From assembly GCF_014931565.1 (NCBI RefSeq), contig NZ_CP063353.1, forward strand, positions 682,001 to 746,000: a stretch of 64,000 nt of DNA, given 5' to 3'. Of the stretch, positions 34,339 to 61,942 are shown in pieces. The number at the start of each line of letters is the position of its first letter. Position 1 is the stretch's first letter. The position numbers and the translations under genes are program-made. This DNA comes from Clostridium sp. 'deep sea' (lineage in GTDB: Bacteria; Bacillota; UBA994; PWPR01). The notes beneath the pieces were generated by a model that saw only the letters and a program-made list of their open reading frames with translations, was not told the origin of the DNA and did not search any database.

Positions 34339-34353
34339 CTTTGTTTCTAAATA

Positions 34354-34490: not shown

Positions 34491-34509
34491 TGTTTTCCTC
34501 CCTAATTTA

Positions 34510-35010: not shown

Positions 35011-35190
35011 TTACCATGGATTTTTTCTTATAATATACTTAAATAATATTATACCTACCACAATAATGTAAGCAATAAATAAAATTTTATCATATGGCTT
35101 ATATAATGAGAAAACTTTATCATCAAGTATAAATCCCAATAAACTGGCAGGTATTATAAATAAAAAGAATTTTTTATCTTCATTACTCAT
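35011..35190 (-). CDS. 59-aa two-helix membrane protein, candidate immunity protein B1
   Basis: ATG at 35190 has AAAGGAG seven bases upstream, and the stop of the orphan Rhs gene (35203) is 12 bases away. The product MSNEDKKFFLFIIPASLLGF continues with DDKVFSLYKPYDK, then a second helix IAYIIVVGIILF and the ending IIRKNPW. A truncated homologue occurs after fossil tail C at 34413-34490. A gene placed directly after an Rhs tail is normally its immunity gene. A membrane location implies that tail B acts at or enters through the membrane (inference). Confidence 0.7.
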   Translation of the reverse strand: MSNEDKKFFLFIIPASLLGFILDDKVFSLYKPYDKILFIAYIIVVGIILFKYIIRKNPW

Positions 35191-37803: not shown

Positions 37804-38094
37804 TTATTTTCTATATTTAATTAAAGGTACATAATACTTATTAATATATATTGCTGGTAAAAATGTTATTACATAAAGTATTATAGCTATATATAGCTTC
37901 ATACCTAAAAAAAACACTGTCATACATAACAAGCAATGTATAAGAATTCCGACTCCTGCCAAATTAGATTCTATTAATTCACTACCACATTTCTTACAAA
38001 TGATAGTAGTTCTCAGTCTATAGTTAGTTTTGAACTTATCTTTAAATGTAATAGTACTATTCTCACATACAGGGCATTTAAACAATTTTTTCAT
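37804..38094 (-). CDS. Zinc-ribbon plus two-helix membrane protein, candidate immunity protein A
   Basis: This 96-aa protein has the zinc ribbon FKCPVCENSTITFKDKF with a second pair CKKCGSE, then two hydrophobic helices (LIHCLLCMTVFFLGM and AIILYVITFLPAIYI), ending VPLIKYRK. GAGGAG lies six bases upstream of the ATG at 38094. The stop of the main Rhs gene is only 11 bases upstream, so the two are translated from one message. Its paralogue at 30512 follows the paralogous tail A'. It should protect the producing cell from tail A. I know no named immunity family with this architecture. Confidence 0.75.
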   Translation of the reverse strand: MKKLFKCPVCENSTITFKDKFKTNYRLRTTIICKKCGSELIESNLAGVGILIHCLLCMTVFFLGMKLYIAIILYVITFLPAIYINKYYVPLIKYRK

Positions 38095-38105
38095 ATAAAT
38101 CTCCT

Positions 38106-41100
38106 CTACTTATTGTTAAAATAAATATTTTCTCCAGTAGCTAACATAATATTTGGATTAATAAGATCACTTCCAGCACTAATGGGTGCTGGTGGTATTC
38201 CATAGTCATAAACAGAAATATCTGTTTTACTAAATAATTTGCCTAAAGGATCAAATCTGAATCTTTGAGTATCGTATATCCCATCTTTTTCTATGCTTAT
38301 AGACATATCTTTAAATCCATTCCATTTTTTTACATCTCCTACAGTATCATAAATACTTTTAATTATCCCTAATCCAGTAAAAAAGTGAGGAGTATATTCA
38401 GATATATTGTCTTTTATGAATTTAATATGTGACAACCCTAACAATGCTCCATCAACTGCATTTGATGCTGTAAAATCAATATTAGGTTCTGATAATTCGT
38501 CTCTAGCTCCAACAGATAATAAATATGCCAATATATTATATAATGGAGCTACGCTTAATGCTGTAAGACCTGAACCAATTAATGCAGCACTTTTAGATGG
38601 ATCAAGATCAAAACTAATAGATATTTTAGACTCTATCTTCTTATTATGGTAAGTATAAGTACTTATACAATTACCATCATCATCACTGAAATCATATTTA
38701 CCTTTGTATTCTTCTTTCTGCCTTATTGTATCAATAGCTCGTAAACTAGCATATGCCTTATCTGTATCTTTATTTTTTATATTTGTAAGATAACTCTGTT
38801 TAAGTGCTAATACAGACATATGGTCTTCCTTTGTTAATACCGTTTGATCTTGTACTTCAGGATTAGCTATATTCTTAAATAAGGTTTCAGGAGACTCGCC
38901 TGTTTTATTATGATGTTCAATAACCTTTTTCTGGAACTCTTTTGAGTATTCATTTCCTACATTGTACTTATCTAGTATCTCCTTATCACTAAAAACAGGT
39001 TTACTTGGTTTACTACCACCTTTTTTAGGTACATAAACTGAATCATCTTTTTTATTATAGTGAACTTCAGCCCCTGCATTTTGGGCAGTTTCACGAATTC
39101 TTACTTGTACTCTTCCATCTGTAGTTCTAAAGAATTCTGTTCCATCGTCTGCTTTGGCAGTGCCACCGTTTTTAACTTTATTTAGATCATAAGTAACTGT
39201 TTTTGTGCCTATTCTTGTTGTAACAGTATTGGTCTTGCCATCGTAGTCAACTTTTCCACCTAGACCTTCAATTACATCTCGTAAATTACCTGTAGTACTT
39301 TTTCCAGTATACTTAGCATTCCCTACTTCTCTTTCACCTACTGTTATAGCTAAATGCCCACTAGGGTCAATATAGTTTATTGGGTCATTCTCACAATAGG
39401 TATATAGATTTAAACTTAGAGGATTTACATCCTCACCCCAATAGCTATCTTCACTTATGAATCTACCTATATATGGGTTGTAGTATCTAGCACGTAAATA
39501 ATAAAGTCCTGTTTCATAATCATAAAACTCACCTGAGTATTTTATGTTATTTGTTTCGGTTTCAATGGTAAGTGTTAAGTTACCAAATATATCGTAATTG
39601 TATTGGTTAATAACTTGTCCATTTTTACTAACAGTTTGTACTACATCACCATGACCGTTGTATAGGAAATAGGTAATATTTGTGCTGTTTTTGCTTGAAA
39701 TATAGTTAATTCCTCTTACATAACTTGTACTTTCATTACCGTTTTCATCGGTTTCTAATATGACATGCTGACGATCATAGTAGTAGTTGGTTGTTTTTTT
39801 AATGTTTAGTTTACTTAGGCTACTACTTGTTTTTTGGGTACGTAATCCATCACCGTTATATGTGTACGTTACTATATGGCGGTCGCCATTGGCAATTCGC
39901 TCTACTTTTTTGAGTCTGTTAAAACCATCAAAAGTGTTTTTGGTTCTTTCAATAAGTTTATCTATTTCAGTTGACTCTTTGTTTACTACACTACCTTTGG
40001 TCATTTGTCTTAAAACAATTGTATGGGGGTGTTCGTAGCTAGTGTATTGGCTTAGCTGATTACCGTTATTGTCATAGAGGTAGTTTACTGTTTTACGTAA
40101 TAACTCGTTACCCTCTTCATCATACATTTTTTCTACATGTTGTAGTAGTAGGTTTGCTGATGAATAGCTGTAGTTGCTTGTTTTTTTAAGGTATTTAACT
40201 TCTTCTTCGGTACTTTTAATTATATATTTAGTTGGTTGCTGTGTTTTATATATTTGCTCACTATTTTGTCTGTTACCTGCTTTATCGTAGCCATAGCTTG
40301 TTGTATAACCTGGGGCTTCTACTTGTTTTATTCTGCCTGCGGTATCGTAGCTATAGGTTGTTGTGCCATAACTGTCTGTTTTTGTTTCTTGTCGGCCTGC
40401 TTGGTCATAGGTATAGTTATAGCTAGATATTGTGTTAAAGCCTTTTTTGTTAGCTAGGCTAGTTATTTGGTTGTTTTTGTTGTAGCTATATTCTTCTTTT
40501 ACTCCTCCAGGGTATTCTATGGATTCTCTGTTACCATTCACATCGTAACTATAGGTTGTTGTTAAACCAGCTCGCTTTACTGTTTTCATCCTGTTGGCTT
40601 TGTCATAGCTGTATTCTGTTACATTGTTCTTTGTATCTGTAACGCTAGCTATATTACCAAGTTTATCGTAGCTGTAGCTTATTTCAAGCTCACCATTTTT
40701 TGTTACTTGTAATAGTTTGTTTATTTCATTGTAGCTATACTCACTAGTACCACTTTCGTCTTGCATTTTGGTTCTGTTGCCTAAGATATCATAGTCATAG
40801 GTTATGCTGTCGTTAGTTTCAGTTACTGTTTTTTCTGTTAGTTTATTACGACTATTGTATTTGTAGTTATGATGATTACCCTTTTTATCTATTTGCTGTG
40901 AGATATTTAGATGTATATCATAACTATATTTTATAGTTTTTTGCTCTGGATTAATTACTGTTAGTAACAAACCAAAGTCTCCATAGTTATAGCTGGTTAT
41001 TTTTCCTTTGCCATTACGTTTAAAAGTTTTGTTATTAACTTTGTTATAGCCATAGCTTGTTGTTACACCTAAAGCATCTATTACTTTTATTAGTCTACCA

Positions 41101-44100
41101 ATATTATCGTACTCATATCTTGTTGACTCTGCTAAACCATTTGTTTGTTTTGTTTTTTCACCATATTGGTTGTACTGCATTGTTATGGTATTGCCTTCGG
41201 CATCGGTTATTGCTGTTACTTGGTTAGCTAGGTTGTATTGGTAGCTAATAGTATTGCCTTTAGCATCTGTAATGGTTTTTATTCTACCCTTTTTATCGTA
41301 ACTATTTTGTTTAATTACTTTGTTATAAGGGTCGATTGTTTTTGTTACTCTATTTAGCTCATCATAGTCATACTGCATACTATTGCCTAGGTTGTTGGTT
41401 TCTTTTATTTTGTTACCTGCTAGGTCATAGTCATATGTTAAGCTACTGCCCCGTGGGTCAGTTATTTTTTTAACTCGATTTAGTTCATCATAACTATATG
41501 TTGCTATATTACCTTTAGGGTCTTTTTCTTTTATTTTATTGCCATTTTCATCGTAGTAATATTCTATAGTGGCCTGTTCACCATTGTAAAACATTACTAC
41601 TTTTTTAGGTCTATTGGCTTTATCATAAGAATATGCTGTGGTATATTCTTTTCTTCTAATATCTTCTTTTGAGTATAGCTGCCCCTTGGGTGCTACTTCT
41701 TTTGTTTTGTTGCCTAAGATGTCATATTCATAGCTTGTTTTTAGCTGAACTTTTGCTGGATACTCATTATCTGTTAAAGAACTTATATTATTCTCACTTT
41801 TTATAGCTATTTTATCTACTAGTTTTATATTAGATATAAGTCTGTTTGAGCTATCATAAACAAATTTTTCAATGTTGTATTGACCTTCTTCACGTAGGCT
41901 TATTGTTTTTATGATATTGCTGTTTTTATCATAGCTATAGTTGATATTTGCTCCACTATTATAGGTTACTGATTCTAGTTTATTGTTATCTAAGTAAGCA
42001 TAATAGGTTTCACGTTTATTGTTTATGTTTTTAGTACCAGTTAGAGTTTTTTTGGTTACTCTACTAAGGTTATCGTAGCTGTATTTTTCTAAGCTATATA
42101 ATGTACTGCCTTGTTTTTCGATTGGTATTTTCTTTTCCACTACTCGGTTTAAGGCATCATAGCTAATATAGGTTTTCGCCCCTGCTTCATCTGTTAGTAC
42201 TACTTGGTTACCTATCAAGTCACTTTTTATTGTTTTACTGTCACCTAAGGGATTTGTAACTTTTTTTATTTTACCAAGTTTATTATACTCAAATAAAGTA
42301 GCATTACCTCTTTGGTCAGTTTGAGTTATTATACGGCCTTTTTTATCGTATACGTATAAGACCTGTGCGCCATCGACATAGGTTACTCGTGATACGGTTT
42401 TATCTGGATTATACTCAAATCTAGTAATATTTCCTTTTTGGTCAGTTTGTTTAGTAATATTTCCTAAAACATCATAGCTATAGTGTTTACTATTACCAAA
42501 TACATCGCTTTCTTTAACTACCCTACCTAAGGCATCATATTCATACACTGTTCCTTCGTTGGCCTCTAATCTTAAACCATCGATTGTTTTTTGCACATTA
42601 CCATTTGGGCTATATTCTATTTTTTGCAGTATTTCACCCTCGGGGTTTATTACCTGCGTTTTGCGATTCATTATGTCATAGCTATAGGTTAGCCCTTTTA
42701 GTTCATGTATTTCTGCTTCGTTATCTTTAGCTGCATTATATTGGTTTGGTGCTATTTCTTTGATAATATTACCTAAAGTATCATAAACATATCTTGTTAT
42801 TACATGGTCACCTTTGCCAAAAGGCTGTTTGGTACGAATAAGTCTATTTAAATTATCGTACTCAAAGAAAGTAGAAATGTTTTGGGCATTTCGCTCTTCG
42901 ATTATATTGCCATTTAAGTCATATTTATAGCTTGTTATGTTCTTTAAGGCATCTGTTTTGGCTACTAAACGATTATCTAGGTCGTAGCTATAACTTTGTT
43001 TATTTCCATTAGCATCTATAGTTGTTTTTACTGATCCGGTGCTATAATAGCTATATTTTGTTGTTGCTTTTATTAATGCTGGGTAGTCGTTATCAAACTC
43101 GGAATTAGCTAATAGCTTAGACTCTATATCGCAAGTATTTAGCAACACGCTACTTTCAATTAAGTTACCCACTACATCATAGCTATATTTTTCTATGTCA
43201 TAATCTGTGTTATTTACTTTTACTTTTTTAATGTTTACATTACCAGCAGCATCATAACCTATTATGGTTTGTTTATCATTAGGCCCTTCAGTAGCTACTA
43301 ATTGATTGTTTTCGTTATAAGTATAGCTTACTTTATCACCCATGCTTTTCTCTACACGACTGCTTTTAGTTTTATTTTCAGTTACTTCAAAGGTTTCAGT
43401 TGTTAACATATTACCTAACTCGTTATAGCTGAATTTAGTTAGTTTATATTGTATATAGGTATTGTCTTCAGCAATGTATTCTAGGCTCTCTATAAGGTTA
43501 GAGGCTTTATCATATTTAAAATATTTAGAGTTTCCTTCTCTATCTATGCTTTCTAGTAAGTTACCTTTATTATCATAAATAAAGTTTTCCTCTAATCCAT
43601 CTGGGTGAATAATTTTATAGGGTTTACCAAATAGGTTTTTATAGGTTTTTATTTTTCGGTTAGCCCTATCTGTTTCTGCTATATAAAACATTCCTAATAA
43701 GTCATAAACATAACTAATGCTTTTATGGTCTGGAAATGTTTTTTGTTTTACTTGATTATTCATGTAGTATGAATACTCAGTTACATTGCCATTGCCATCT
43801 ATTTCTTTAATAACATTGTCATTGGCATCGTACTCATATTTTTTGGTGAAAAAGCCATTATAACCATTGTCTTTAACTGTTTGTGCTGAAATATAAGTAA
43901 TGGGTCTGTCATGTACATCATACTCATAGTAATTACCTACTGAGTTTTGAACAGCTAAAGAGTTGTATCCCTCTCCAGATCCTTCTTTAATAATATTGCC
44001 TCTAGCATCGTAAGCTTTAAAAGTTAGTACCTTTGTTTGATTATTGCTAAAGGTTTCTGTTCTTATTAATCTGTTAAGACTATCATATACATAAATAAGT

Positions 44101-47100
44101 CCTGGAGCTGTATTTTTATTTTGCTGCGCATATCTGGCATCAATTTGTTTTATAAGATTGTTATTACAATCATACAAATAGCCTGTGTTATTGTTTAAGG
44201 CATCTGTTTTTGTAACTATATTGCCCAAACCATCGTAGCTATAGCTAGTTTTATGTTCTTTGCCATTAACAAATACGCTTTCTGATTTTAGGTTTCCTAC
44301 TTGGTCATAAGTATATTTAGTTTTTTTGTTTAAGCTTTCATTAATGGTCTCTAACTTGTTTAACACTCTGTTGCGGTAATCATAACTAAAGCTTGACGTT
44401 TGGTTATCTTCTCCATTGTATTCAATTTTAGAGAGCATATTACCTTCTTCATCATAACTATACTTTACTAATGTGCGACCTTGCTCACTAATAGTACTAT
44501 CGTCTTGTTTTGCTTGATAGCTAGTACTGTTTTCTATTACCCTGTTTGCATAATCATAAACTGAGTTTTCTTTAATATAGCTCTTTTCATCGGCTGTTAT
44601 ATAGGTTATCTTCTCTATTAAATTACCTACTTTATCATATTTGTAATTTATATGTGCTTGTCGCTCTTCATCTACTTTTTGGTATTGATCAGTTATGTTA
44701 TTCATTTTATCGTAAACAAAAGTTATATCTGTTGTTATAGTATTGATATCATTTTTCACTTCACCTTTTAAGTGTTTAAGGGTGTTGTCATTATTATCAT
44801 AGCTATATTTATTGTATATATAGTTACTTTCGCCCTTTTTAAATACCCTGCTTTCTATTAATCTTCCTAAAGTGTCATAGATATTTTTGGTTATTTTATC
44901 TGCGGGTTCTATAATTTCAGTTACATTGTTTAGGCTATCATAGTTATATTGTACTCTGTTATTTAAGGGGTCACTAACTGCCTTTAGTCTCCCCAAATCA
45001 TCATACTCTTTTTTATGAGCATTACCCTTGGGGTCTACTGAAGTTAGTTGTTTTCCTGTGTAGTCATAACTAAAAATGTTATTATGAAAATTTATTTTAT
45101 CTTGGGTGACACTATACTTTATTAGTCTGTTAGCTATATCATAGTGCATTTGTTTTTTATAACCTTTATCGTCTGTTAAAGTTAATAAAAGCTTTGTATT
45201 TGAGCCTGGGTTTATGGTATAACTTAAACTCACACTCTCTTTTGGCACAGATCCATTCTCTTTATCATAGAATGATTTTTTTACAAGCCTATAGGCACTA
45301 TCATATGTAAAAGCAACACTATTTTTATTGCTATCTGTTTCTTTAATTTTATTGCCTTTGGCATCGTATTCTATTGTATTGGTAACAATCCAATTATTGT
45401 TTTTATTAATGCTATATTTAACTCTACAACCCAAGGTATCATATTCTGCTAAAGCTTTAACACCTTTTTCATTGATTACTTCAATTTTTCTATTTTCAGT
45501 TTTATTATCTATATAATTATATTGTAATTGTGTGTTATTTGTTTGTTTTGTTTTAATAAGCCTTTCTACATCATCATATTCATAAGCTGTATAGTTACCA
45601 TTGCCATCTATCTCTTTAATTAGGTTTCCTGTTTTAAAGTTATAGGCAAAGTTTTTCTCTATTTCAGCGCCATTAACAGTGGCAATTTCTTTTGTTAAAT
45701 AAGCTCCTTTATGGTCTACACCATTTATGTCTGTTGAGTAAACATATTTTTTGATACTATTTTCAGTTGTGTTTTTAACAGTGCTATTTACTAAATTACC
45801 GTAAGTATCATACTGGTACTCAGTGACTATATTTTTATTATTATTTGTGTTATTAATTTGTTTTTTAGATATTATATTACCGTTTGAATCAATGTTAAAA
45901 ACTGTTTGGCAAATACTATTTTCGTTTTGATTAAATGTTTTTAATTTTAATACATGATATTTTTTATAGTCATAAGCGTAAGTAATTGTATGTTTATCAT
46001 CTACTGGATAACCCTGCTCATCTCTATCTGCTAATGGACCTGTGTAGTTAAGTAAGTTACCATAAGTATCGTATCTATAATTCTCTACTTTATTTGCTGG
46101 CTCACCAGTTATAACGCCATTTTTTTTGTTGTAAATGGTATTTTGCTTTTTCTTAACCAGCTTCATTTCATCATACTCAGAGGTGGCAACTTGTTTGTGA
46201 TTGTCTCCCTCTTTTACAGAGTTTATTAGCTGATGAAGCCCATCATAAGTATAGGTATTTGTACTACCATTAATATCTTTTACTTCTGTAGAATATTTAA
46301 AGCTATCTTTTAAGTAAGTATAGTCATTATTATTGTATCCTTCTGTACCATAACCGTCTGGCTCATTATTATAGCTATACTGAGTTTTATCTTTAACCTC
46401 TGTAATAAAGCTATTTAAAAAGTCAGTGTTATTATAGTTAAAATCTTTTTTTATTAACTCTTCTGCTCTATATATTTTACGGTACTGCATACTACCCTGA
46501 CTAAGCTCTTTTGTATAAGAGTTGTAGGTATATCTTTTAATTCTGTTCTGTTTACAGTAATCTATTTGTACTAGGTTTTCATACTTATTGTAGGCTGAAT
46601 AGTTATTAGCATTGGTAAAGGTAAAGCCTAAATCGGGTTGCTCATACCAAAAATGGTATTTTGGTTGATTATCCATATCTATTACGCTTTGTAACCTTGT
46701 TCTTATTACATGTTTGCTATTACTCACTAATACCGCTGATTTATGGTAAATAATATGTTTATTATTAGGTAAAGTAATTGTAACTTTAAATTTATTTTTT
46801 AAATTACCAGAGTCAATGTTATTTGGATTTTGATAAGCGGTATAGCTATTGTGCAGATTATAAGTAGGGTTTTCTTTAGCCCCTACCTTATAGTTTGCAT
46901 CATCTGAATACTCAATTTTAATTTTGCGACCAACTGTATCAATTATTTCTGAAATTAGTCTTTTGGTAATTTTAGTATTATCTACTTTGTAAGTTAGGGT
47001 AGTATATTTAAACTGAATTGTATTACCGTATCTATCTACAATACCTAATATTCTCCCATCTTTAGCAAAGTAGGTATTTTTGCCGGCTTTATTTGTCATT

Positions 47101-47732: not shown

Positions 47733-47763
47733 CTTTTTCTCCCCTAATGCTATGTTAATGTAT

Positions 47764-48522: not shown

Positions 48523-48524
48523 GT

Positions 48525-49424: not shown

Positions 49425-49436
49425 TATTTTCTCCTC

Positions 49437-52400
49437 TTACTTCTCTTTTATATTTAAGTTTATGGTGGCCTGTCCTGTTATTTTTGGTTTAAATACTATT
49501 GTAGTTATTTCACCAGACCATGATTTACCCGGAATTATATTTTTATTTACTTTTATGGACACTTGTGAATCTTGTTTAGTTACAATTAAGTTAGTATTTT
49601 TAATTGGGCCTGATTCTGTATCTTTTTGAGGTGTAAAACCACATAAATCTACAATTTCAAGCTCTGCAGTATCGTACTCCATATTAAATGTTATATCACC
49701 AAAGTCTTGTACATTATCTACAATAATAGACAGCTCAAATGTTTCACCTTGTTCACAATTTATTAGGTAATTAGGATTCTCGGTGCTTATTATGACAGCA
49801 CTGCTCCAAGCTGTGATACCAGCTTGTCCCTTAGACCTTACTCGGTAAATATGTGATGTTCCTGGTTCTAAAGGAGTATGTATATATTTATTTAGCTCAG
49901 TAGCTATAATTGAATTACCATCGATTTCAATTTCATAAGCTTCTGCACTATTAACTTTATCCCATTTAAGCTCTATACTATTATAAGTAGCTATTGCCTC
50001 TACGTTTTTTGGTGTTTCTGGTGGATCAGGTAATGTTGACAATGAAAGTACACCACACCATTTAGAGCTATTATTAAGTGACTTAACCCTTATTTTATAG
50101 GTATGATATTCATTTTGAGTTAGTGCTAAATGCTCAAATGAGGTATCTGTTCCTATGTCTTGTAAAACTCCATCTACCTCTATTTCGTATTCAGCTTTAT
50201 AGGCAACTGTATCCCAAGATATATTTATAGAGTCATTTGTTACCACAGCCATTACATTTGTTAAAGAAATTGTTTCGTTTTCATCTTCTACAGGCAGCGT
50301 TCTACTGCTAACTGGATTCGACCACTCACTTTTGCCAGTTATATTTTCGGCCTGTAGTTTGTAGCTATGTTCTTCATCTGGCTTTATATTTTTATGAATA
50401 AACATTGTTCCTTTTATTTCTTTGATAACATTATCATCAATACATACATAGTATTTTTCGGCATAAGGTACATCATACCACGTTACAGTAATGGACTCTG
50501 TATCTGATGTTGTTAATATGTTTTTGGGAGCAATGGGTTTTTCGGGATGAGTAGTTACATCTACTTGCTCACTCCAGTCTCCCTCTACTTTTCCGTTTGC
50601 TCTAGTAGCTTTTACCTGATAACTGTGTCCACTAATGGGTTCTAAACCCTCATGCAGGTAAGATGTTTCTGTGCCAACATCAATTTTAGTACTACCATCT
50701 ATTTTTATATAATATCCTTCTGCTTTTTCTACTGGTGTCCAAGTAAGGAAAACACTATTTTTGGTTATTTGGGTAGTTAAGTTTTGAGGTACTGCTGGTG
50801 GATTAGGTAATGTTGATTGAATTAAAACATCACTGTATTCACCTTTACCTCCTATGTTTATAGCTCTTACAGTAACCTGATACTCTGTTTCTGGAACTAA
50901 GTCGTTTATAGTTATACTTGTATCATTACAAACAATAGGCTCTTGTTCATCTATTTTAACCTCATAATATGTTGCCCTAGTGGCAGAGCTCCAAGTTAAC
51001 TGCATACTAGTTTGACTATAGTCAGTTACTGTTATGTTCTCGACCTTAGTTGGTGGGTATGGTAATGTTGAGATATTTATAACCTCACTCCAATTGCCTG
51101 CTCCACTTGAGTTAACTGTTCTTATCCAAAAGCTATAGGGTGTGTTTGCCTCAAGACCACTAAAAGTATGTGTGTTATTATTTGGGTTAATGTTTGTAAT
51201 ACCATTAGCATCTTTAATTTCATAAAATTGAGCCCCAGTTATTTTATTCCAATACAATGTAATGCTCTCTTGAGTTTTTTCGTGGTCTGTAAAAGCTGGT
51301 GGTTCAGCTAATGTTGTTATGTTTATAGCCCTACTTAATGGTGTTATTTCACCATTATGGTTTTTTGCTTTGGCAACAATAGTATAGGCTTTATTTTGCT
51401 GCAATCCTTTTATGGTTTTGCTCTTATTGATAAAGGTAATCCACGATTCATTGTTTGTTAAGCTACCATCATTAGCTAAATACTGATTATTAACTTTAAC
51501 AAGGTACTCTGTAACAGATGGATTATTATCTTTAACAACTATACTTAAAGTATCTTTGCTAACTGTATCAATATCTAAAACTGGTTTTTCTGCTGCTGTA
51601 TATATTGTTTTCTGTAAGGTGCTAATATTAGAGGCATTATCTATCGCCTCTAACACCACGTTATAGCCTGTGTTGGGCAGTAAGTTAGTTTTTGTGGCTT
51701 GATTGTTATTTGTAAATACTGCTGCGTTATCATCTATATTTATTTTATAGGGTTTAGCTGCCAAACCAGAGCCATTATCTTGGGCTGTCATGGTTAAGTT
51801 TATGCTATTTTCAGTAGTATTTGTTTGGCTAATATTAATTTGGGGTCCTGTTTTATCTATTTTAAAATTCACAATATCTTGCACTGTATCGCATTGGTCA
51901 TAAACTGTAAACTTTAATTTATGGTTACCTTCGCTGAGTTGTGCTAAATCAATTTGCTGGATATCTACAACAATTGCAGTTTTAGTATTAGGCACATCTA
52001 CCTCATAATGAGGTGTTGTAGCATTATCTATAAAGCACTTAATTGTTAATGTATCACTATCGGGGTCAGTTACTTTAATTCTGGGATTAAAACCTTTTGT
52101 TCCTGGTACCCATTGGTTATTTAGTGGTTTAAGAATGTCAATTATCGGTATTTTCTGTATGTCTTCAAAAATTGTTGTTAGTTGATTTGAGAATGATCCA
52201 CCTAAATCTAGTTTTAAACCATCTGTTGCATTTACTAAATAATTAAAAGTACTATGTCCTATACCTGTTAAAGTTATATCTTTATTATTTAAGATATTAC
52301 TAACTGATTTGTGACTATAGCCATGTCTACTAGTTATAGGCTCGTCTCCAATGATAATAAAATATTTGGCTGCATTCTCATAAAAGGTATAGCTATTAAT

Positions 52401-52745
52401 TGCTGTCATTATTGCATCTAGGCCATTCTCTGTGCCACCAAATGTATTAACATTACTTAAATTGTTTCTAAATGTATTTACACTACTAGTTAAATTATAT
52501 TTTTTGCAATGTGTCTCATAAGTTATTAAGCCCAGTCTATAATCAATACCTTGAGCTACCATTAAATCTACAAAATTACCAATATTACGTTTAACATTAT
52601 TAATATCATCACCCATACTTCCTGATTGGTCGATAATAAATACTATTTCTATACGACTTTTTGCATAAGCTGGCTGTAGTTGGATAGTACTAATTAATAA
52701 AAAAGCAATTAAAAAGAAGCCTATTATTTTTTTTATGTTTTTCAT
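49437..52745 (-). CDS. Secreted VWA-domain and fibronectin type III repeat protein
   Basis: This 1102-aa surface protein has a signal peptide ending near AYA (residue 28). A von Willebrand A domain follows at about residues 33-215, with the MIDAS motif D39-x-S41-x-S43 (IIDQSGSMGDD). A loop domain comes next, then about eight fibronectin type III modules (repeated WNKITGAQFYEIK-like and TPYSFWIRTVNSSGAG-like segments). It ends in a beta-rich domain with LEIVDLCGFTP and IKNTNLIVTKQDSQ, close to the end of the 2995-aa protein. VWA plus FN3 suggests metal-dependent adhesion to protein or polysaccharide. No LPxTG, SLH or choline-binding anchor is visible, so retention on the cell is unexplained. 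Confidence 0.9.
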   Translation of the reverse strand: MKNIKKIIGFFLIAFLLISTIQLQPAYAKSRIEIVFIIDQSGSMGDDINNVKRNIGNFVDLMVAQGIDYRLGLITYETHCKKYNLTSSVNTFRNNLSNVNTFGGTENGLDAIMTAINSYTFYENAAKYFIIIGDEPITSRHGYSHKSVSNILNNKDITLTGIGHSTFNYLVNATDGLKLDLGGSFSNQLTTIFEDIQKIPIIDILKPLNNQWVPGTKGFNPRIKVTDPDSDTLTIKCFIDNATTPHYEVDVPNTKTAIVVDIQQIDLAQLSEGNHKLKFTVYDQCDTVQDIVNFKIDKTGPQINISQTNTTENSINLTMTAQDNGSGLAAKPYKINIDDNAAVFTNNNQATKTNLLPNTGYNVVLEAIDNASNISTLQKTIYTAAEKPVLDIDTVSKDTLSIVVKDNNPSVTEYLVKVNNQYLANDGSLTNNESWITFINKSKTIKGLQQNKAYTIVAKAKNHNGEITPLSRAINITTLAEPPAFTDHEKTQESITLYWNKITGAQFYEIKDANGITNINPNNNTHTFSGLEANTPYSFWIRTVNSSGAGNWSEVINISTLPYPPTKVENITVTDYSQTSMQLTWSSATRATYYEVKIDEQEPIVCNDTSITINDLVPETEYQVTVRAINIGGKGEYSDVLIQSTLPNPPAVPQNLTTQITKNSVFLTWTPVEKAEGYYIKIDGSTKIDVGTETSYLHEGLEPISGHSYQVKATRANGKVEGDWSEQVDVTTHPEKPIAPKNILTTSDTESITVTWYDVPYAEKYYVCIDDNVIKEIKGTMFIHKNIKPDEEHSYKLQAENITGKSEWSNPVSSRTLPVEDENETISLTNVMAVVTNDSINISWDTVAYKAEYEIEVDGVLQDIGTDTSFEHLALTQNEYHTYKIRVKSLNNSSKWCGVLSLSTLPDPPETPKNVEAIATYNSIELKWDKVNSAEAYEIEIDGNSIIATELNKYIHTPLEPGTSHIYRVRSKGQAGITAWSSAVIISTENPNYLINCEQGETFELSIIVDNVQDFGDITFNMEYDTAELEIVDLCGFTPQKDTESGPIKNTNLIVTKQDSQVSIKVNKNIIPGKSWSGEITTIVFKPKITGQATINLNIKEK

Positions 52746-52869
52746 TTAATTTCTCCTAATAACTTTACAATGAAAGATAAGAACATCCAGCCTTATTAAC
52801 TATGTTAAGCTTTTAAGGCTGTAGTTCTATTCTTTATCCTCTCTAAATATTATGGAAACTATTATATAT
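52746..52869. other. 124-bp gap between the two giant surface protein genes
   Basis: It contains a weak hairpin (AGCCTTA with TAAGGCT, 52789-52820) without a T run on the minus strand, and the ribosome site AGGAG just before 52745. I see no convincing promoter, so read-through from 61900 is plausible. Confidence 0.4.
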
Positions 52870-55800
52870 TTACTCTACACAATAAGTTACTTTGCTATCA
52901 TTACTACTATTAGCTAATAACTTAATACTATTTACTAATGTTTTAGTAACATTTTTTGCTAAAAACACTATTTCACCCGGCTTGTATGAAACAACACTAA
53001 GATTTGTGCCCTTAATATCTCCAACCTCTGTTTCAATCTCTGGTGTTATGGCACATAAATCAACTATTTCAATCTCTTTTACATCATAGGTAAATGTTAT
53101 TTTACGTTCATTTGTATCTTTTAAATAAGGTATAACCATTACAAAGTTAATTTGTTTGCCTTCACCTACATTAAGGGTAAGTTCAGGAATAGTTGCCTTT
53201 TCGTATATTTCAGTCCACTCACTAATAGCAGTTTCATTTTTCACTCTTACTCTATACTGATGAATAGTATTTGAATCTAGCCCTTCATGTAAATACTTAG
53301 CTTCGGTAAGATTCTCAAAAATTTTACCATCTACCTCAATATCAAAGGCTTTTATCTCTTCTTTTTTATCCCATTCTAGGGATATTGAACTGGTAGTTAC
53401 TTCAGTGAACACTAAATTAACATCTATACTTGGTACTGTCATAACCTTTATAAGCTCCGACCAGTCACCTTTTCCTCTACTGTTGTAAGCCCTTACTCTA
53501 TACTCATGCCAAGTATTAGGTAATAATCTTTCATGTTTATACTTTACTTCATTATTAATATTTATAATGTTTCCATCTACTTCAATTTCATATCCTAAGG
53601 CATCTTCTACAGGGTTAAAACTAATTAATATTTCATTAACTGTAGGTTTATTTACAATATTCTTAGGGATATCTACCATTGTAAATTGTTTAATTGTTTC
53701 GGTAGTACTGTCGCCATTTACTATGGCTTTAACTCTATATATATAAAGGTTATTTGGCTCTAAGTTTTTATCTGTATAGGAGGTTTTTGTACCTACAGAT
53801 TTCCACTTACCATCTATTAGTACTTTGTAACTTGCCCCATTTACTTCGCTCCAGCTTAAGTCTACTGTAGTACTTGTTGCTTTAGAACTAAGAACAAGAT
53901 TTATATCTCTCTTAGTTTTAGCTGTTAAGTAACCACTCCAAGCTGTACTTCCACCTGCATTGCAGGCCCTAACTCGATATGTATGTGAGGTGTTTGCTGC
54001 TAAGTGTTTATGGTCATAGTAGTCACTATCACCCACATTAATAACTTGTCCATCTACTTCTATTTCGTAGTGAGTAGCGCCAGTTAATTTATTCCATGAT
54101 ACCTGTATATAGTTTGTTGTTCTAAATGCTTCTAACACAAGTTCTCCTTGCACTAAGGCAGTAGTGTGGATTTTATCACTCCATATACCAGTGCAGTTTA
54201 TATTTACAGCCCTTACACAGTAACTATGAACACTGTTTGCAACCAAATTTTCATGTTTATAAGTTAGTTCAGCTGTTTTAATTATTTCTCCATCAATTTC
54301 TATTTCGTACTGAGTTGCTTCTGCTACCTTATCCCAGCTTAAGTTTATATAGTTTGCTTTAGCAGTAGCTTTAAAGTTAGTTGGTTTTGATAACATTGCA
54401 CTGTTTGAAATAAGACTGCTCCAATCGCTTGCTCCTAAATTACTTTTTGACCTTACTCTATAGCTATGCACTGAGCCTGGAGTCACTGAGTTATGTACAA
54501 ACTCATTTGCAATTACTTCTTGTATTACACCATCTACTTCAAGATCATATGCTGAAGCACCTGAAACAGTATCCCAGTTTATTTTTAGTTGATTATCCGT
54601 TGCTGTTACATTAATATTTTTAGGAATATCTGTTAATGTTTTTTGGGCATAAACATTACTCCAAAAACTCTCTGTGTCCTCATTTTTTGCTCTAATTTTA
54701 AAAGCATACTGGGTATTTGGGGTTAAATCATTCATTACAAAATCAGTATTACAACCACAATAAACAACCGTACCATAGTTCTCTACTTCATACATTGTGG
54801 CATTTTCTACAGCACACCAAGCTAATTGTATTTTTGTTCTATACGGTGTTAATACAATATTTTGAGGTGGTGTTAATTCAACAACTTCAGCAAAAACCTT
54901 TGTTATTGGTTCACTCCATTCACTTGTACCACATTCATTTATCGCTCTAACTTTAAATGAATACTTATTATTTAGCTGTGGATTGTTAAAAATATATTTT
55001 GAGTCGTCTACTTCAACCAAATTATCATTTATTTTAATTTCATAACTTGTTGCACCTAGTACTAGGTTCCAATTAAGTTCTATACTATTGTGTTTATTAA
55101 TTGCTTTTACACCCTGAGGTATTTGTGGTATATCACTATTTATTACAATTACACTACAAGTATCTGTAAAGTCACCATCTGCTGTTTTAACAGTTATTAT
55201 GGCCTCACCTAATCCTACAGCAGTTATGTTGCCATGTTTATCTACAGTTGCTACCTGTTCATTCGAACTGGTATATTCTACTAATTTATTAGTTGCATCG
55301 TTAGGATTAATATTCAGCTCAAGTTGTTGCTTAACAGTTTGTCCGTCTTGTAGTTTTAAGGTATATGAATCACAGTTAAAGCTTACAGATTTAACCATAA
55401 TATATTCACTACTACCTAACCAACTAGGTTTATCTAGGCTACTTAACCAGGGGTAGGTAAAGCCACTTATAATATTCCAAGTATGAGCATAACTATGGTT
55501 TTCAGCTATATCCCAATTATTAAATGTACTTAGCTGTTTAAGATTTTCAGCACTTATTGGCTTATTATACTTGTTCTCATAAAAATGCTTATTGATATCG
55601 GTATTAAAATAACAATCATCAACATTTATCGCTCTATCTACATAACCAATAAAACCATTTGCTTCATTGTTAGCATAAATAACATCACTGGAAGCATAAG
55701 AATTACTTATGCTACAATCACTTGAACTTTCATTACAAACCATGCCAATAAAACCTCCAGCATAGTCTTTAAACATAAAGTTAAAAGCAACTACCTCGCC

Positions 55801-58800
55801 AACTGCAAAAGAATTTTTAATAGCAAAACTTGAGCCACTAGAGGCTGTTACTTTACCTATAAGTCCACCGACTTGATTACTCGCCCTTACAATACCCGAG
55901 GCATAACAGTTTTCAATTTTGCCATTTTTTAAATAGCCAATTAAGCCACCAACCCTACTGCCTAAAAAGATTTTGTTGAAGTTAATATTTGCTTTATTGA
56001 AACAGTTTTTTATAAGGCAATTATTATTAGTAAAGTTAACATAACCAAATAACCCTCCAACATTGTCAAGTCCAGCAATATTTCCACCCGAAATTGAAAC
56101 ATTTATTATCTTAGCATTAGCTGCTTTTACATAACCCGCTAATCCACCAACTTGATTTAGTCCTGTGACACCGTTACCACCTATGTTAATTTTTAAATTA
56201 TAAATATTACAATTATCTCCCAATGCTGCAAATAGTCCTATATTACTATTAAAGTTTGCAGAGATTGAAAGGTTACTAACTGTATAATTATTTCCATTTA
56301 AACTACCTGTAAATGGGGCATTTTGGGTTGCGATTGCCCACCAGTGATTATCCGGCAAATCAATATCTTTTTGTAAGGCATAGTTTGCCTTCAAGCTGTA
56401 CCTTATATTAGATAGATGTTTAGCATTACTAATAAGATAGGGGTCTTGCAAAGTGCCTAATCCTCCTGCCATAATGTTATTTATATTTGGCTTAACATTT
56501 GGCTTTTTTAAGCTCTGCAAATATGGATATGACAAACCTTCATCTATAGCCCAAGTATTTTCGAAGTCTAACCCTTTTAAGTTCTCTTGTTTTACCATTT
56601 CTATGGTTAGTTTAGAAACTTGTACCTCTACACTGTTTTGTGCTTCAACACCTGCTACAATACCATCTATATATAAATCTTGCATATTTATGTATTTTTC
56701 TGAATTGCTATTACCACATACTAAACCTGATTTTAAATAATTGTAATCTTCATTAGGTAATTGAACTGCACAAATAGCTTTTGTTATATTAAACTTTGCG
56801 TTATCTACTTCATCAATATAGCCAACTACAGTTCCTATAAAGGTGCTAGCTAACAAATTGCGAGCATTAACACTACCATAAACAGATATGTTATATATGG
56901 TACTTTCAATACTACCTTTAACAAAGCTAGAACCAATAAAGCCCCCAACATAGTCATAAGCCTCAACAAAACCATTACTATATGAATTTTTTATTACACC
57001 GTTATTAAAACTACCTGTAAAACCACCTGCATGGTTTAATATCGCATTTACATTTATCTCTGCATAACAATTAGAGATTGTAGCATTTTGACTTTTATTG
57101 TTTATCTGCCCAATCAGTCCCCCTACATAAGAGCTACCTCTAATCTTACCTTTTCCTGTAACACAACAGTTATTAATACTACCTTGATTTAATGAAACAT
57201 AACCTGCTAAAGCTCCAACTCTATCTAAAGCTTTTACACCTGTTTCACTTATTGAAATTTTAGTATTTATTACCTCTGCATTGTCTGCAATACAACCAAA
57301 AAGACCTTGATTGTTGCGCAAACTATTAATAGTTAAATTTGAGATAGTAAAATTTCCACCATTAAAGGTTCCTGTAAATGGTTCCTTCACGTCTCCTAAA
57401 GCTAACCATTTATAGCCGCTTAAATCGAGATCATTTATTACTTTATAACTAGCCTGAAGGTTATCTTTAACCCTTATCAGTTTTTCTACAGAATCTATAA
57501 GATAAGGATTCTCTTTAGTACCTTCACCAGCGTACATGGAAGAGTCTTTAAGTATTGTTACCTGACAGGTGTCTTTAAAAGTACCATCGTTAGAAGTAGC
57601 TGTTATGGTAGCTGTTCCTAATGATACTGCCACTACTTTTCCATTTTCATCTACGGTAACCACACTTGAGTCACTTGATATATATTTTAGCTGCTTATTT
57701 GAGGCATTGTGAGGTACTATTTCAACATTTAAATATTCATAAACTTCAGTACCTTGTTTTAATTGCAGAGTAATATTTTTATTAATAATATTTATACCAG
57801 TAACAGGTATGTCGCCAACAGAATTATATGGATTTACCATAGTGCTTAGCCATGGCAAAGAGTTATTTTGGTTAATAAGCCAAACAGTATCTGCATTATT
57901 ATTTTCACTCATGCTCCAATTACTATAAGAATTAATCTCCATCATTTCTGTTTCTGTTAGCCCTTTGTTATAGGAATTTGTCTCAAAATTTGAGTTAATG
58001 GTTGAATTAAAATAACTATCTAAAACAGATAAGTTGTTTTTTTCTATACAACCTACTAAACCATTAGCTTGTTTTTTAGAGCTATTAATACTTACAGATG
58101 CGTATGAGTTTTGAATTTTTGAGCTATTTTTACTATTTACTTTACCAATTAGTCCTCCAGCATAAGCACCAAAAAATGAATCGGCAGCTAACAAATCACC
58201 TGTTGCAAAACAGTTTATAACAGTAAAAGAATTATTGTAAGTACTTGAAGCCGTACCTATAAGCCCTCCTACACATCTTTTACCTTGTACGGTACTATTG
58301 GCATAACACTTGCTAACAGTACCATTCTTTAGGCTACCTATTAAGCCTCCAATGTTGTATAGCTTTAAATCGTAATTAGAGTTAATAGTTGCGGTACTAT
58401 AACAGTTTTCTATTAAGCAATTTTCACTATTATTAAACTCAGCTTTACCAAATAGCCCCCCAACATCGCTAATTCCTGTAATAGAGCCACCTATAATTGA
58501 TACATTTCTTATTGTAGCTGTAGAAGCAGTTATAGCACCAGCTAAGGCTCCTACCTCGTTTAAGCCATTTACACCTTCATTACTTAGCTCAATTCTTAAA
58601 TCTTTTATTTTACATCCTGTACCTAAAGATGAAAATAAGCCAGCCCGAATAGCCATAACATTCTTAACTGTGAAGTTTTTAATTGTATAATGGTTACCAT
58701 TAAGAGAGCCTGTAAAAGGAGACAATAATGATCCAAGTGGTTTCCATACTCCGTAATCAATCATATTTATATCATTTAATAACTTATAGTTAGCGTTTAA

Positions 58801-61800
58801 ATCAAATTTAATATTTGCCAATTGTTTAGGGGTGCTTATTAAGTAGGGATCATTAACCGTTCCACTACCCCCAGCCATCATTTCAGCTAAACTAGAATCA
58901 CCGAGTCCCAATAGTTGGGCTAAATATGGATCTATCTCAATACTATAATTATTAAAAAAATCTTTTAAACTAAAATCCCAGTTAAAGATATCTAAATTAC
59001 TTATACTGCTATTACCATAATCAAAGCTCGGTACATCATTAGCTAAATTTCTCGGAACACCTATAGTACTATAGTTAGAGCGTATTGCTTTTTTAGAATT
59101 ACTACTATCCTCAACATAACCTATTAGTGAACCGATATTTTGGCTTTGACTATTTGTAATATTTAAACTTCCTAATACAATGTTATAAGAGATATCACTT
59201 AGAATAGAGTCAGTAGGGAAAAATGCTCCTAGTAATCCACCAACATAATCACTTCCGCTTACACTTGAGGTACTTACACAATTCTTAATCCTACCATTTT
59301 TAAAGCTACCAGCTAATCCTCCCACATATTGATTAGCATTTACCTTAACACTTACATAACAATTAGCAATATAGGCATTGGCATTAGTGTTATTAACCTC
59401 TCCAAATAAAGCACCTACATAGTTATTACCACTAACTAAACCATTGCCAATTACATTACAATTTTCTATTTTCCCCTCATTAAGATTTACAAAACCTACT
59501 AGAGCACCTACTCTGTCATTTCCATGAATATTATTACTGCTAACTTCTATGTCTAGATTTTTAATAACAGCATTTTCAGCTACACAACCAAAAAAGCCTT
59601 GATTATCTTGTTCACTATTAATACTTAGGTTTGTAATTTTAAAATAATTACCTTTAAATTGACCTGTAAAAGGCTTTTCTAGTGAACCAATTGCTTGCCA
59701 ATTTGTAATACTATGCAAATCAATATCTCTAACCAAGAGATAACAAGCACTAAGTTCATTTCTAATTCCAGTTAGTTTTTCAACACTATCTACAATGTAA
59801 GGATTATCCGCAGTACCTTCTCCTTCATATAAGGTTTTCTGTTTAGGTGTATATACAAGTTCATCACTTAAATCACTTTCTAATTCTCCTGCTACTGCTT
59901 TTACTGTGATTGTGTAATTCGATTCATTATTTGAGTTATATATGTATTGTGGCTCTGTGGTTTCATACTCTGCTCCATTAATTGTAAGCACATATGATTG
60001 GGCATTCACCACTGCTTGCCATGTTATTTTTAAACTATCTTCTTGATTTTCTACTTGTAAATTTTGTGGCTTACTTAGTTGTTTAGTAACATATGAAACT
60101 TCATCACTTAAATCACTTTCTAATTCTCCTACTACTGCTTTTACTGTGATTGTGTAATTCGATTCATTATTTGAGTTATATATGTATTGTGGCTCTGTGG
60201 TTTCATACTCTGCTCCATTAATTCTAAGCACATATGATTGGGCATTCACCACTGCTTGCCATGTTATTTTTAAACTATCTTCTTGATTTTCTACTTGTAA
60301 ATTTTGTGGCTTACTTAGTTGTTTAGTAACATATGAAACTTCATCACTCAATTCACTTTCTAATTCTCCTGCTACTGCTTTTACTGTGACTGTGTAATTA
60401 GATTCGTTATTTTTGGTATATATATATTGTGGCTCTGTGGTTTCATACTCTTCTCCATTAATTGTAAGCAGATATGATTGAGCATCCTCCACTGCTTGCC
60501 ACGTTATTTTTAAACTACCTTCTTGATCTTCTACTTGTAAATTTTGTGGTTTGCTTAATTGCTTAGTAACATAACTAAACTCATCACTCAATTCACTTAC
60601 TAATTCTCCTGCTACTGCTTTTACTGTGATTGTGTAATTCGATTCGTTATTTGTGCTATATATGTATTGTGGCTCTGTGGTTTCATACTCTGCTCCATTA
60701 ATTGTAAGCACATATGATTGGGCATTCACCACTGCTTGCCATGTTATTTTTAAACTCTCTTCTTGATTTTCTACTTGTAAATTTTGTGGCTTACTTAGTT
60801 GTTTAGTAACATATGAAACTTCATCACTCAATTCACTTTCTAATTCCCCTGCTACTGCTTTTACTGTGATTGTGTAACTTGATTCATTATTTGAGTTATA
60901 TATGTATTGTGGTTCAGTTGTTTCATAGTCTGCTCCATTAATTGTAAGCATATATGATTGGGCATTCTCCACTGCTTGCCATGTTATTTTTAAACTATCA
61001 TCTTGATCTTCTACATGTAAATTTTGTGGCTTACTTAGTTGTTTAGTAACATATGAAACTTCATCACTCAATTCACTTTCTAATTCTCCTGCTACTGCTT
61101 TTACTGTGACTGTGTAATTAGATTCTTTATTTGTGCTATATATGTATTGTGGCTCTGTGGTTTCATACTCTGCTCCATTAATTGTAAGCACATATAATTG
61201 GGCATTCTCCACTGCTTGCCATGTTATTTTTAGACCATCTTCTTGGTTTATTACTTGTAAATTTTGTGGTTGACTCAACTCACTAATACTTGCCGGTGTT
61301 ACATTATTTTTTTCTACTACCTCATTGTTTTCGTTAACATTACTATCAATTTCTTGTTCATTCTTGATGTCTTCTTCTTGATTATTTTCCTCAGTATTTT
61401 CTATTTCACTTTCTAAATTATCTTCATCCTGTTCTATTTCTTCATTTATTATTTCATCTATCTCATCTGTTTTTTCTGCTATTTTTATATAATCTGAGAC
61501 AACTATATGTTGTTCATCTGTCCACTCACTTATATTAATATCATTTTGAGCCCTTACTTTTAGAATAAGTTGCTTTTTATCTAAATTCTCTAATAAATTA
61601 ATATTAAAGCTACACTCGTCTCCATTATTTATTATTTCTCCATCTAAAAATATTTCATAACTTGTAGCATTCTCTACAGCCTGCCATTCAATAGTAATAC
61701 TTTTTTGATTAGCATTAATAACAATTCCTTGAGGAATACTCAAACTACTCTCATAAGTTTGAATATCAGCATTTGCGTATGCTAAGGTTATCATCTGTAC

Positions 61801-61857
61801 AACTAATGTAACAATCAAAAAAGCTTTTGTTAGTTTACTGCTTTTTAACCAGCCCAT
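52870..61857 (-). CDS. Giant secreted surface protein with FN3, GLUG and Big_2 domains
   Basis: This is a 2995-aa protein with a signal peptide (AFLIVTLVVQMITLAYA, residues 12-28). In order it carries one FN3 module (about 37-125), a very acidic linker rich in Glu and Asn (about 126-190), six nearly identical 80-residue FN3 modules (about 192-669), and GLUG-repeat beta-helix blocks (segments like VGGLIGYLKNGKIENCYA) at about 690-1340, 1450-1850 and 1850-2140. Big_2 immunoglobulin-like domains lie near 1350-1440 and 2150-2240, more FN3 modules at about 2245-2895, and a C-terminal beta domain shared with the VWA protein. It looks like an adhesin. AGGAGA lies just before the ATG at 61857. No sorting signal is visible. 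Confidence 0.92.
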   Translation of the reverse strand: MGWLKSSKLTKAFLIVTLVVQMITLAYANADIQTYESSLSIPQGIVINANQKSITIEWQAVENATSYEIFLDGEIINNGDECSFNINLLENLDKKQLILKVRAQNDINISEWTDEQHIVVSDYIKIAEKTDEIDEIINEEIEQDEDNLESEIENTEENNQEEDIKNEQEIDSNVNENNEVVEKNNVTPASISELSQPQNLQVINQEDGLKITWQAVENAQLYVLTINGAEYETTEPQYIYSTNKESNYTVTVKAVAGELESELSDEVSYVTKQLSKPQNLHVEDQDDSLKITWQAVENAQSYMLTINGADYETTEPQYIYNSNNESSYTITVKAVAGELESELSDEVSYVTKQLSKPQNLQVENQEESLKITWQAVVNAQSYVLTINGAEYETTEPQYIYSTNNESNYTITVKAVAGELVSELSDEFSYVTKQLSKPQNLQVEDQEGSLKITWQAVEDAQSYLLTINGEEYETTEPQYIYTKNNESNYTVTVKAVAGELESELSDEVSYVTKQLSKPQNLQVENQEDSLKITWQAVVNAQSYVLRINGAEYETTEPQYIYNSNNESNYTITVKAVVGELESDLSDEVSYVTKQLSKPQNLQVENQEDSLKITWQAVVNAQSYVLTINGAEYETTEPQYIYNSNNESNYTITVKAVAGELESDLSDELVYTPKQKTLYEGEGTADNPYIVDSVEKLTGIRNELSACYLLVRDIDLHSITNWQAIGSLEKPFTGQFKGNYFKITNLSINSEQDNQGFFGCVAENAVIKNLDIEVSSNNIHGNDRVGALVGFVNLNEGKIENCNVIGNGLVSGNNYVGALFGEVNNTNANAYIANCYVSVKVNANQYVGGLAGSFKNGRIKNCVSTSSVSGSDYVGGLLGAFFPTDSILSDISYNIVLGSLNITNSQSQNIGSLIGYVEDSSNSKKAIRSNYSTIGVPRNLANDVPSFDYGNSSISNLDIFNWDFSLKDFFNNYSIEIDPYLAQLLGLGDSSLAEMMAGGSGTVNDPYLISTPKQLANIKFDLNANYKLLNDINMIDYGVWKPLGSLLSPFTGSLNGNHYTIKNFTVKNVMAIRAGLFSSLGTGCKIKDLRIELSNEGVNGLNEVGALAGAITASTATIRNVSIIGGSITGISDVGGLFGKAEFNNSENCLIENCYSTATINSNYDLKLYNIGGLIGSLKNGTVSKCYANSTVQGKRCVGGLIGTASSTYNNSFTVINCFATGDLLAADSFFGAYAGGLIGKVNSKNSSKIQNSYASVSINSSKKQANGLVGCIEKNNLSVLDSYFNSTINSNFETNSYNKGLTETEMMEINSYSNWSMSENNNADTVWLINQNNSLPWLSTMVNPYNSVGDIPVTGINIINKNITLQLKQGTEVYEYLNVEIVPHNASNKQLKYISSDSSVVTVDENGKVVAVSLGTATITATSNDGTFKDTCQVTILKDSSMYAGEGTKENPYLIDSVEKLIRVKDNLQASYKVINDLDLSGYKWLALGDVKEPFTGTFNGGNFTISNLTINSLRNNQGLFGCIADNAEVINTKISISETGVKALDRVGALAGYVSLNQGSINNCCVTGKGKIRGSSYVGGLIGQINNKSQNATISNCYAEINVNAILNHAGGFTGSFNNGVIKNSYSNGFVEAYDYVGGFIGSSFVKGSIESTIYNISVYGSVNARNLLASTFIGTVVGYIDEVDNAKFNITKAICAVQLPNEDYNYLKSGLVCGNSNSEKYINMQDLYIDGIVAGVEAQNSVEVQVSKLTIEMVKQENLKGLDFENTWAIDEGLSYPYLQSLKKPNVKPNINNIMAGGLGTLQDPYLISNAKHLSNIRYSLKANYALQKDIDLPDNHWWAIATQNAPFTGSLNGNNYTVSNLSISANFNSNIGLFAALGDNCNIYNLKINIGGNGVTGLNQVGGLAGYVKAANAKIINVSISGGNIAGLDNVGGLFGYVNFTNNNCLIKNCFNKANINFNKIFLGSRVGGLIGYLKNGKIENCYASGIVRASNQVGGLIGKVTASSGSSFAIKNSFAVGEVVAFNFMFKDYAGGFIGMVCNESSSDCSISNSYASSDVIYANNEANGFIGYVDRAINVDDCYFNTDINKHFYENKYNKPISAENLKQLSTFNNWDIAENHSYAHTWNIISGFTYPWLSSLDKPSWLGSSEYIMVKSVSFNCDSYTLKLQDGQTVKQQLELNINPNDATNKLVEYTSSNEQVATVDKHGNITAVGLGEAIITVKTADGDFTDTCSVIVINSDIPQIPQGVKAINKHNSIELNWNLVLGATSYEIKINDNLVEVDDSKYIFNNPQLNNKYSFKVRAINECGTSEWSEPITKVFAEVVELTPPQNIVLTPYRTKIQLAWCAVENATMYEVENYGTVVYCGCNTDFVMNDLTPNTQYAFKIRAKNEDTESFWSNVYAQKTLTDIPKNINVTATDNQLKINWDTVSGASAYDLEVDGVIQEVIANEFVHNSVTPGSVHSYRVRSKSNLGASDWSSLISNSAMLSKPTNFKATAKANYINLSWDKVAEATQYEIEIDGEIIKTAELTYKHENLVANSVHSYCVRAVNINCTGIWSDKIHTTALVQGELVLEAFRTTNYIQVSWNKLTGATHYEIEVDGQVINVGDSDYYDHKHLAANTSHTYRVRACNAGGSTAWSGYLTAKTKRDINLVLSSKATSTTVDLSWSEVNGASYKVLIDGKWKSVGTKTSYTDKNLEPNNLYIYRVKAIVNGDSTTETIKQFTMVDIPKNIVNKPTVNEILISFNPVEDALGYEIEVDGNIININNEVKYKHERLLPNTWHEYRVRAYNSRGKGDWSELIKVMTVPSIDVNLVFTEVTTSSISLEWDKKEEIKAFDIEVDGKIFENLTEAKYLHEGLDSNTIHQYRVRVKNETAISEWTEIYEKATIPELTLNVGEGKQINFVMVIPYLKDTNERKITFTYDVKEIEIVDLCAITPEIETEVGDIKGTNLSVVSYKPGEIVFLAKNVTKTLVNSIKLLANSSNDSKVTYCVE
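59850..61280 (-). repeat. Six tandem 240-bp repeats encoding FN3 modules
   Basis: The unit beginning TAATTCTCCTGCTACTGCTT recurs at 59881, 60121, 60361, 60601, 60841 and 61081, exactly 240 bases apart, with few differences. Each unit encodes 80 residues of an FN3 domain (SKPQNLQVENQEDSLKITWQ and so on). Length variation by unequal recombination is likely between strains. Confidence 0.95.
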
Positions 61858-61914: not shown

Positions 61915-61942
61915 ATTATATCTATATTACTTAAAATGTAAA
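61915..61942 (-). promoter_or_regulatory. Sigma-A-like promoter of the surface protein/Rhs operon
   Basis: On the minus strand TTTACA (61937-61942), a 16-base spacer and TATAAT (61915-61920) precede the start codon at 61857, leaving a leader of about 50 bases that ends in AAGGAGATAGGT. It could drive all genes down to 37804, about 24 kb. Confidence 0.6.

Follow-up and report, generated by a model that had tools for sequence, protein, structure and literature searches.

The six minus-strand genes which occupy positions 61857 to 37804 of the 64,000-nucleotide stretch of Clostridium sp. 'deep sea' DNA analysed here (referred to as the window) form a fixed module that is kept together across distant species. 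Its ends are swappable, namely the head of the first adhesin on one side and, on the other, the toxin tip together with the small gene behind it; conserved are the middle parts, i.e. the FN3 stalks with their cohesin-type C-termini, the two helical proteins P4 and P3 and the shell of the Rhs protein. We consider it probable (roughly 0.6) that this is a dedicated operon by which a Gram-positive cell exports a giant polymorphic Rhs toxin, displays it and aims it. The initial annotation had described a co-directional block of six genes with gaps of 2 to 124 bp, and all six open reading frames are indeed present on the minus strand, the gaps amounting to 124, 12, 2, 31 and 11 bp in the direction of transcription. 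The features of the block are as follows:

61915-61942, minus strand: likely operon promoter, TTTACA-16-TATAAT, 11/12 matches
52870-61857, minus strand: adhesin A, 2995 aa
52770-52838, minus strand: hairpin in the intergenic gap between adhesins A and B, -24.2 kcal/mol, z = -4.9
49437-52745, minus strand: adhesin B, 1102 aa
49458-49754, minus strand: cohesin domain (PF00963) at the C-terminus of adhesin B, 1.6e-8, 35.3 bits against a cut-off of 24.1
48525-49424, minus strand: P4 (P0004), 299 aa
47764-48522, minus strand: P3 (P0003), 252 aa
38106-47819, minus strand: Rhs gene as called, with a likelier start at 47732
38106-47732, minus strand: Rhs toxin with signal peptide, YD shell up to the DPSG motif, Cu_amine_oxidN1-like pretoxin domain and unique toxin tip
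38109-38627, minus strand: polymorphic C-terminal toxin domain with a hydrophobic segment, matching no known family
37804-38094, minus strand: putative immunity gene, 96 aa, zinc-ribbon-like plus a hydrophobic (transmembrane-like) region

At 61915, where a promoter had been claimed, a near-consensus site is found. Since sites of this kind turn up in such AT-rich DNA about as often as chance predicts (94 observed, 100 expected), it is weak evidence on its own; together with a hairpin and T-run behind the gene preceding adhesin A, however, it brackets the start of the operon. No terminator inside the six-gene block is convincing. The hairpin in the 124-bp gap between the adhesin genes lacks a good T-tail and may be an attenuator or a processing site which tunes expression. 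Structured gaps at this position are also seen in several relatives and could set an expression step.

The conservation of the gene order was analysed by aligning the Rhs N-terminus with other Firmicutes Rhs proteins and scanning 84,980 species genomes (GTDB). The 25 nearest N-termini, 57-70% identical, belong to Clostridia, Paenibacillus, Cohnella and a Bacillaceae genome. In their loci adhesin A, adhesin B, P4, P3, Rhs and a variable small gene follow each other on the same strand, the exceptions being contig ends (L121, L136, L140) and one duplicate copy (L134). The initial annotation had linked the adhesins to the Rhs gene; its absence from all other genomes would have refuted the claim, yet it is found in these 25 nearest loci apart from the exceptions named, and the order is kept in some two dozen further species of Clostridia and Bacilli. 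The duplicate copy, from UBA1305, is a second full-length Rhs of the same family which is accompanied by a 107-aa truncated remnant of P3 and by no adhesins. It resides in the same genome as locus L132 and may use the partners encoded there in trans. A profile search with P4 provided a test which does not start from Rhs. Within 346 Paenibacillaceae genomes P4 is present in 18, with one copy each, and never outside the module: all 18 copies lie inside it, with gaps of -4 to 82 bp. In two of these loci a contig end truncates the adhesin side, and the species overlap in part with the first set. Between the five families, pairwise distances are correlated (r 0.48-0.70, p <= 0.001), as is expected if the genes are inherited or moved together, shared species history contributing to this correlation. 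The module as such is uncommon, since the cohesin-domain sequence at the tail of adhesin B has no other match in 398 genomes of its own phylum, compared to P4 occurring in about 5% of Paenibacillaceae.

The Rhs protein most likely starts at the ATG at 47732, yielding a product of 3208 aa. We prefer this start over 47819 because the ATG is preceded by AGGGGAG and opens straight onto the signal sequence. The RHS repeats which had been assigned to the toxin gene are recovered by Pfam; matches to PF05593 (1e-144) and TIGR03696 (4.9e-22) are accompanied by a core-end sequence, ...NDPINYIDPSGH, which holds the DPxG motif. In relatives the C-terminal domain varies and is followed by a different small gene, as is typical of polymorphic toxins; by the features tested, the protein is a member of the Rhs polymorphic toxins. 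In its N-terminal region Pfam reports a weak match to DUF6531 only, no wall-binding (CWBP/LysM) domain, and in the protein as a whole neither a PAAR or VgrG part nor NHL, whose propeller marks teneurin-like proteins along with FN-plug and TIP domain. The N-terminus thus differs from that of T6SS Rhs effectors, which carry PAAR or VgrG and no Sec signal, as a signal sequence is predicted here. The shell comprises about 2800 aa, the core ending at residues 2786-2908 in all relatives where it is readable, and is larger than T6SS Rhs chains in the PDB, which mostly measure 1100-1900 residues in all; T6SS shells are exceeded more than twofold.

The main toxin tip, not found among 328 other genomes, is present twice in the window, each copy being followed by a related gene (96 and 93 aa). 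This twofold pairing of tip and putative immunity gene fits the reading favoured here. Tips which have been displaced from an Rhs gene, the second copy of the main tip among them, are located downstream of the operon:

35203-37731, minus strand: displaced Rhs tip 1 (open reading frame), of which 36297-37709 is 95% identical to the Rhs gene and is followed by PG_binding_1 and another tip
35011-35190 and 34815-34994, minus strand: two small hydrophobic open reading frames, putative immunity genes of tip 1
34809-34775, minus strand: hairpin terminator after the two small hydrophobic open reading frames
30822-32905, minus strand: displaced Rhs tip which matches the Rhs 3' end at 88% identity and carries a toxin with 61% identity to the main one
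30512-30793, minus strand: immunity gene paralogue, 45% identical, paired with the second copy of the toxin tip
29678-29917, minus strand: remnant of a WHH nuclease tip
29153-29659, minus strand: DUF6985, putative immunity gene

The orphan tips share the 3' core of the Rhs gene at 88-95% nucleotide identity, a further property of polymorphic toxins. They would provide material for recombination, in support of the reading favoured here. Possibly, the operon transcript reads on through displaced tip 1 to the terminator at 34809-34775; this option had escaped the initial annotation, as had the cohesin-type ends of the adhesins and the hairpin between their genes. The region 27032-34800 (minus strand) as a whole appears as a decaying array of displaced tips and putative immunity genes, among them the WHH nuclease, DUF6985 and a PQQ-propeller membrane protein, and is bordered by a transposase-like open reading frame (27032-28321). 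Fragments of Rhs tips are also clustered with small genes at a second site about 50 kb from the operon (L234, genome positions 769003-773519), which is unlike the main Rhs except for a 161-bp stretch of 72% identity. Among the tips of relatives are Tox-REase-3, Ntox30, Ntox50, papain-fold Gln_amidase, VgrG3-like_C and cell wall hydrolase, sometimes sitting behind PG_binding_1 or LysM. Because of its hydrophobic segment and its membrane-protein partner, the main tip might conceivably act on membranes.

The FN3, GLUG, Big_2 and VWA domains ascribed to the two giant proteins were retrieved by Pfam. Adhesin A consists of a signal peptide, FN3, a GLUG/Big_2 head, an FN3 stalk and a cohesin-like C-terminus, and adhesin B of a VWA head, an FN3 stalk and a cohesin C-terminus to which the C-terminal domain of adhesin A is related. 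PF00963 is matched by 9 of 18 tail domains of A and B; adhesin A of the present operon is not among the matches of this genome. An FN3 stalk is found in every ortholog of both adhesins. The heads of adhesin A, swappable on a conserved FN3 stalk, vary across its 19 orthologs (PA14 in 11, CBM3 in 5, GLUG in 2, malectin in one), and VWA is present in 11 of 21 adhesin B orthologs. In line with the claim that a classic wall-anchor signal is missing, none of the operon proteins was reported to contain an LPXTG, SLH or CW-binding domain. A classical cohesin-dockerin assembly was rejected as the operon proteins contain no dockerin according to Pfam; outside the operon the genome encodes only one clear dockerin protein. 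A search of viral contigs with the cohesin-domain sequence yielded nothing. On a Monoglobus plasmid it matched an RCC1-type secreted protein with the same cohesin-like tail (L014:17271-20312), which has no Rhs nearby and is followed by secreted protease-like and GLUG-like proteins.

P4 is composed of a hydrophobic helix at the N-terminus, in which a signal-peptidase site is often not obvious, helical repeats, a disordered (low-confidence) linker and a conserved C-terminal tail with the consensus DVKPxNPA...EIxxINPN. P3 is predicted to be a secreted all-helical repeat protein (structure model, pLDDT 88.7), and, more generally, signal or anchor helices are predicted at the N-termini of the operon components. 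Common to P3 and P4 is a helical repeat of about 48 residues present in several copies; a profile of it which was built from other genomes only recognises P0003 at an E value of 1.6e-4 and P0004 weakly at 0.03. A similar helical-repeat gene is situated directly upstream of far more distant Firmicutes Rhs genes, including loci outside the construction of the profile. The repeat alone is not diagnostic, since weak matches in other Clostridia are stand-alone small proteins away from Rhs. That both proteins belong to no known family, as initially noted, holds for P0004, which has no curated family; P0003 has only a doubtful LOTUS/OST-HTH match (27.2 bits, cut-off 23.8). The model is an all-helical repeat without such a fold match; the similarity to this RNA-binding domain is probably that of a helical look-alike. 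Profile and fold searches of the PDB with P3 and P4, and a comparison of P3 with a viral fold library, revealed nothing above noise. Likewise, no convincing relatives outside the own genome came up when 60 relatives were searched with P0003 or P0004 as single sequences, or plasmids with P0003. A hint at UBA-like three-helix units was too weak for use. Because neither protein matches a known structure, any role assigned to them is a guess.

Among the more distant Firmicutes Rhs loci, 22 of 41 encode upstream, on the same strand, a protein with a YD hairpin of the YDxNGNL type at its end. Such an end occurs in 24 of 90 upstream same-strand open reading frames, compared to 0 of 69 on the other strand, and in none of the 228 open reading frames of cohesin-type loci. 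In these 22 loci (L147-L196) the upstream proteins are secreted and the hairpin comprises two units, as if capping or completing the Rhs shell. The two kinds of tail, cohesin and YD, therefore look like alternatives for capping the partner proteins and may serve as a lead for docking. One could extend this to a widespread two-part weapon by which Firmicutes arm and aim Sec-exported Rhs cages, separate head-swappable adhesins docking onto the cage or the helical adaptors via a C-terminal cap (cohesin here, Rhs-like YD hairpin in distant lineages); we put this generalisation forward tentatively, as its chances fall somewhat short of even.

Several known systems resemble the operon in part. T6SS Rhs effectors (Tse5, TseI, Tre23, RhsA) share the homology of the YD shell, the polymorphic tip and displaced tips downstream; the Rhs of the operon differs in its N-terminal signal sequence, in the missing PAAR/VgrG module and in a core which alone extends to residues 2786-2908. 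Contact-dependent inhibition (CDI) by CdiA/CdiB makes use of a long adhesive stalk, a variable receptor-binding part, a polymorphic tip and an immunity gene, one polypeptide carrying both receptor binding and toxin and an outer-membrane transporter being used. The operon is alike in stalk, variable binding part, tip and immunity, yet these roles would be split among several proteins. WapA of Bacillus subtilis and Streptococcus suis likewise has a Sec signal, a YD shell, a DPxG-bounded polymorphic tip and an adjacent immunity gene. S. suis WapA, however, is reported to possess a LysM/wall region of its own, with a SecF-like gene and the sortase SrtB upstream (PMC12704120), whereas the operon pairs an Rhs without wall-binding domains seen in its N-terminus with two adhesins and two helical proteins. 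Bacterial teneurin-like proteins also enclose a polymorphic toxin in a YD shell with downstream immunity; those of Gram-positive bacteria use Sec, and adhesion domains have been noted. Their adhesion and wall-binding domains lie in the same polypeptide (PMC13018210), whereas in the operon, which also has the larger shell, the adhesion parts are genes of their own. Cellulosome scaffoldins of the ScaO/ScaP type combine cohesin, FN3, VWA and Rhs modules; in the passages of PMC6780208 consulted, these are single scaffoldins with dockerins and peptidases, described without toxin tip or immunity gene; the operon, in contrast, lacks a dockerin partner according to Pfam.

Taken as a contact-dependent surface delivery apparatus, the operon would work as follows. 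All five large or accessory proteins would exit via Sec, and the Rhs protein would fold into an outsized YD cage around its toxin. P3 and P4 may be helical-repeat adaptors or chaperones by which the Rhs N-terminus is handled or anchored, P4 itself probably being held by its N-terminal helix. The two adhesins would attach to the assembly through their cohesin-type tails and project on their FN3 stalks, the heads binding the target surface or a matrix glycan. Contact would then lead to release of the toxin tip into the neighbour, kin being spared through the immunity protein encoded downstream. What the data show is linkage; display at the surface, assembly and killing on contact are inferred. 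The full-length Rhs at L134, standing with a truncated P3 only, speaks against this delivery scheme, as does the lack of a dockerin among the operon proteins in Pfam.

A secretion and folding operon is the less probable, though by no means negligible, explanation of the same genes. P3 and P4, perhaps together with the cohesin tails, would then be extracytoplasmic chaperones required solely to export and fold the Rhs cage of about 350 kDa, like Eag, and the adhesins would be separate biofilm or matrix cargo. The helical-repeat gene is, in fact, the partner most constantly present, lying immediately upstream of Rhs also in loci whose adhesins differ, and Eag chaperones, which serve T6SS Rhs proteins, offer a precedent. 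This leaves unexplained the constant presence in the operon of two adhesins whose cohesin-type tails are related, as well as the Rhs-like YD-hairpin ends on the upstream proteins of the wider family. We regard it as improbable that the apparatus is directed at matrix or host, its heads binding polysaccharide (cellulose, chitin, plant or animal glycans) and the Rhs hitting eukaryotes or acting as a matrix-bound mine instead of killing bacteria on contact. The CBM3, PA14, malectin and GLEYA-type heads on adhesin A orthologs would fit such a function; known antibacterial tip families, bacterial cell-wall-hydrolase tips, the PG_binding_1 and LysM pretoxin domains and the presence of the downstream small gene do not. 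That the genes are functionally independent neighbours, brought together by chance or regulation, could be argued from the raw co-direction in the window only, and the hairpin between A and B could separate expression; an identical order across two bacterial classes and at 18/18 P4 loci leaves this hardly any probability, and we consider it refuted by the conserved gene order.

No description of this operon was found in the open-access literature searched, nor by a term search of the comprehensive survey PMC3482391. The operon bears on how Rhs toxins are delivered in Gram-positive bacteria without a T6SS. The recurrence of the same four partner genes beside a giant Rhs toxin suggests a hitherto undescribed Gram-positive surface machine which aims toxins at neighbours. 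The module supplies two uncharacterised helical protein families along with modular, separately encoded candidate targeting proteins, and its fixed five-gene arrangement in cultured Paenibacillus, Cohnella and Alkaliphilus species provides named partner genes for direct tests of delivery.
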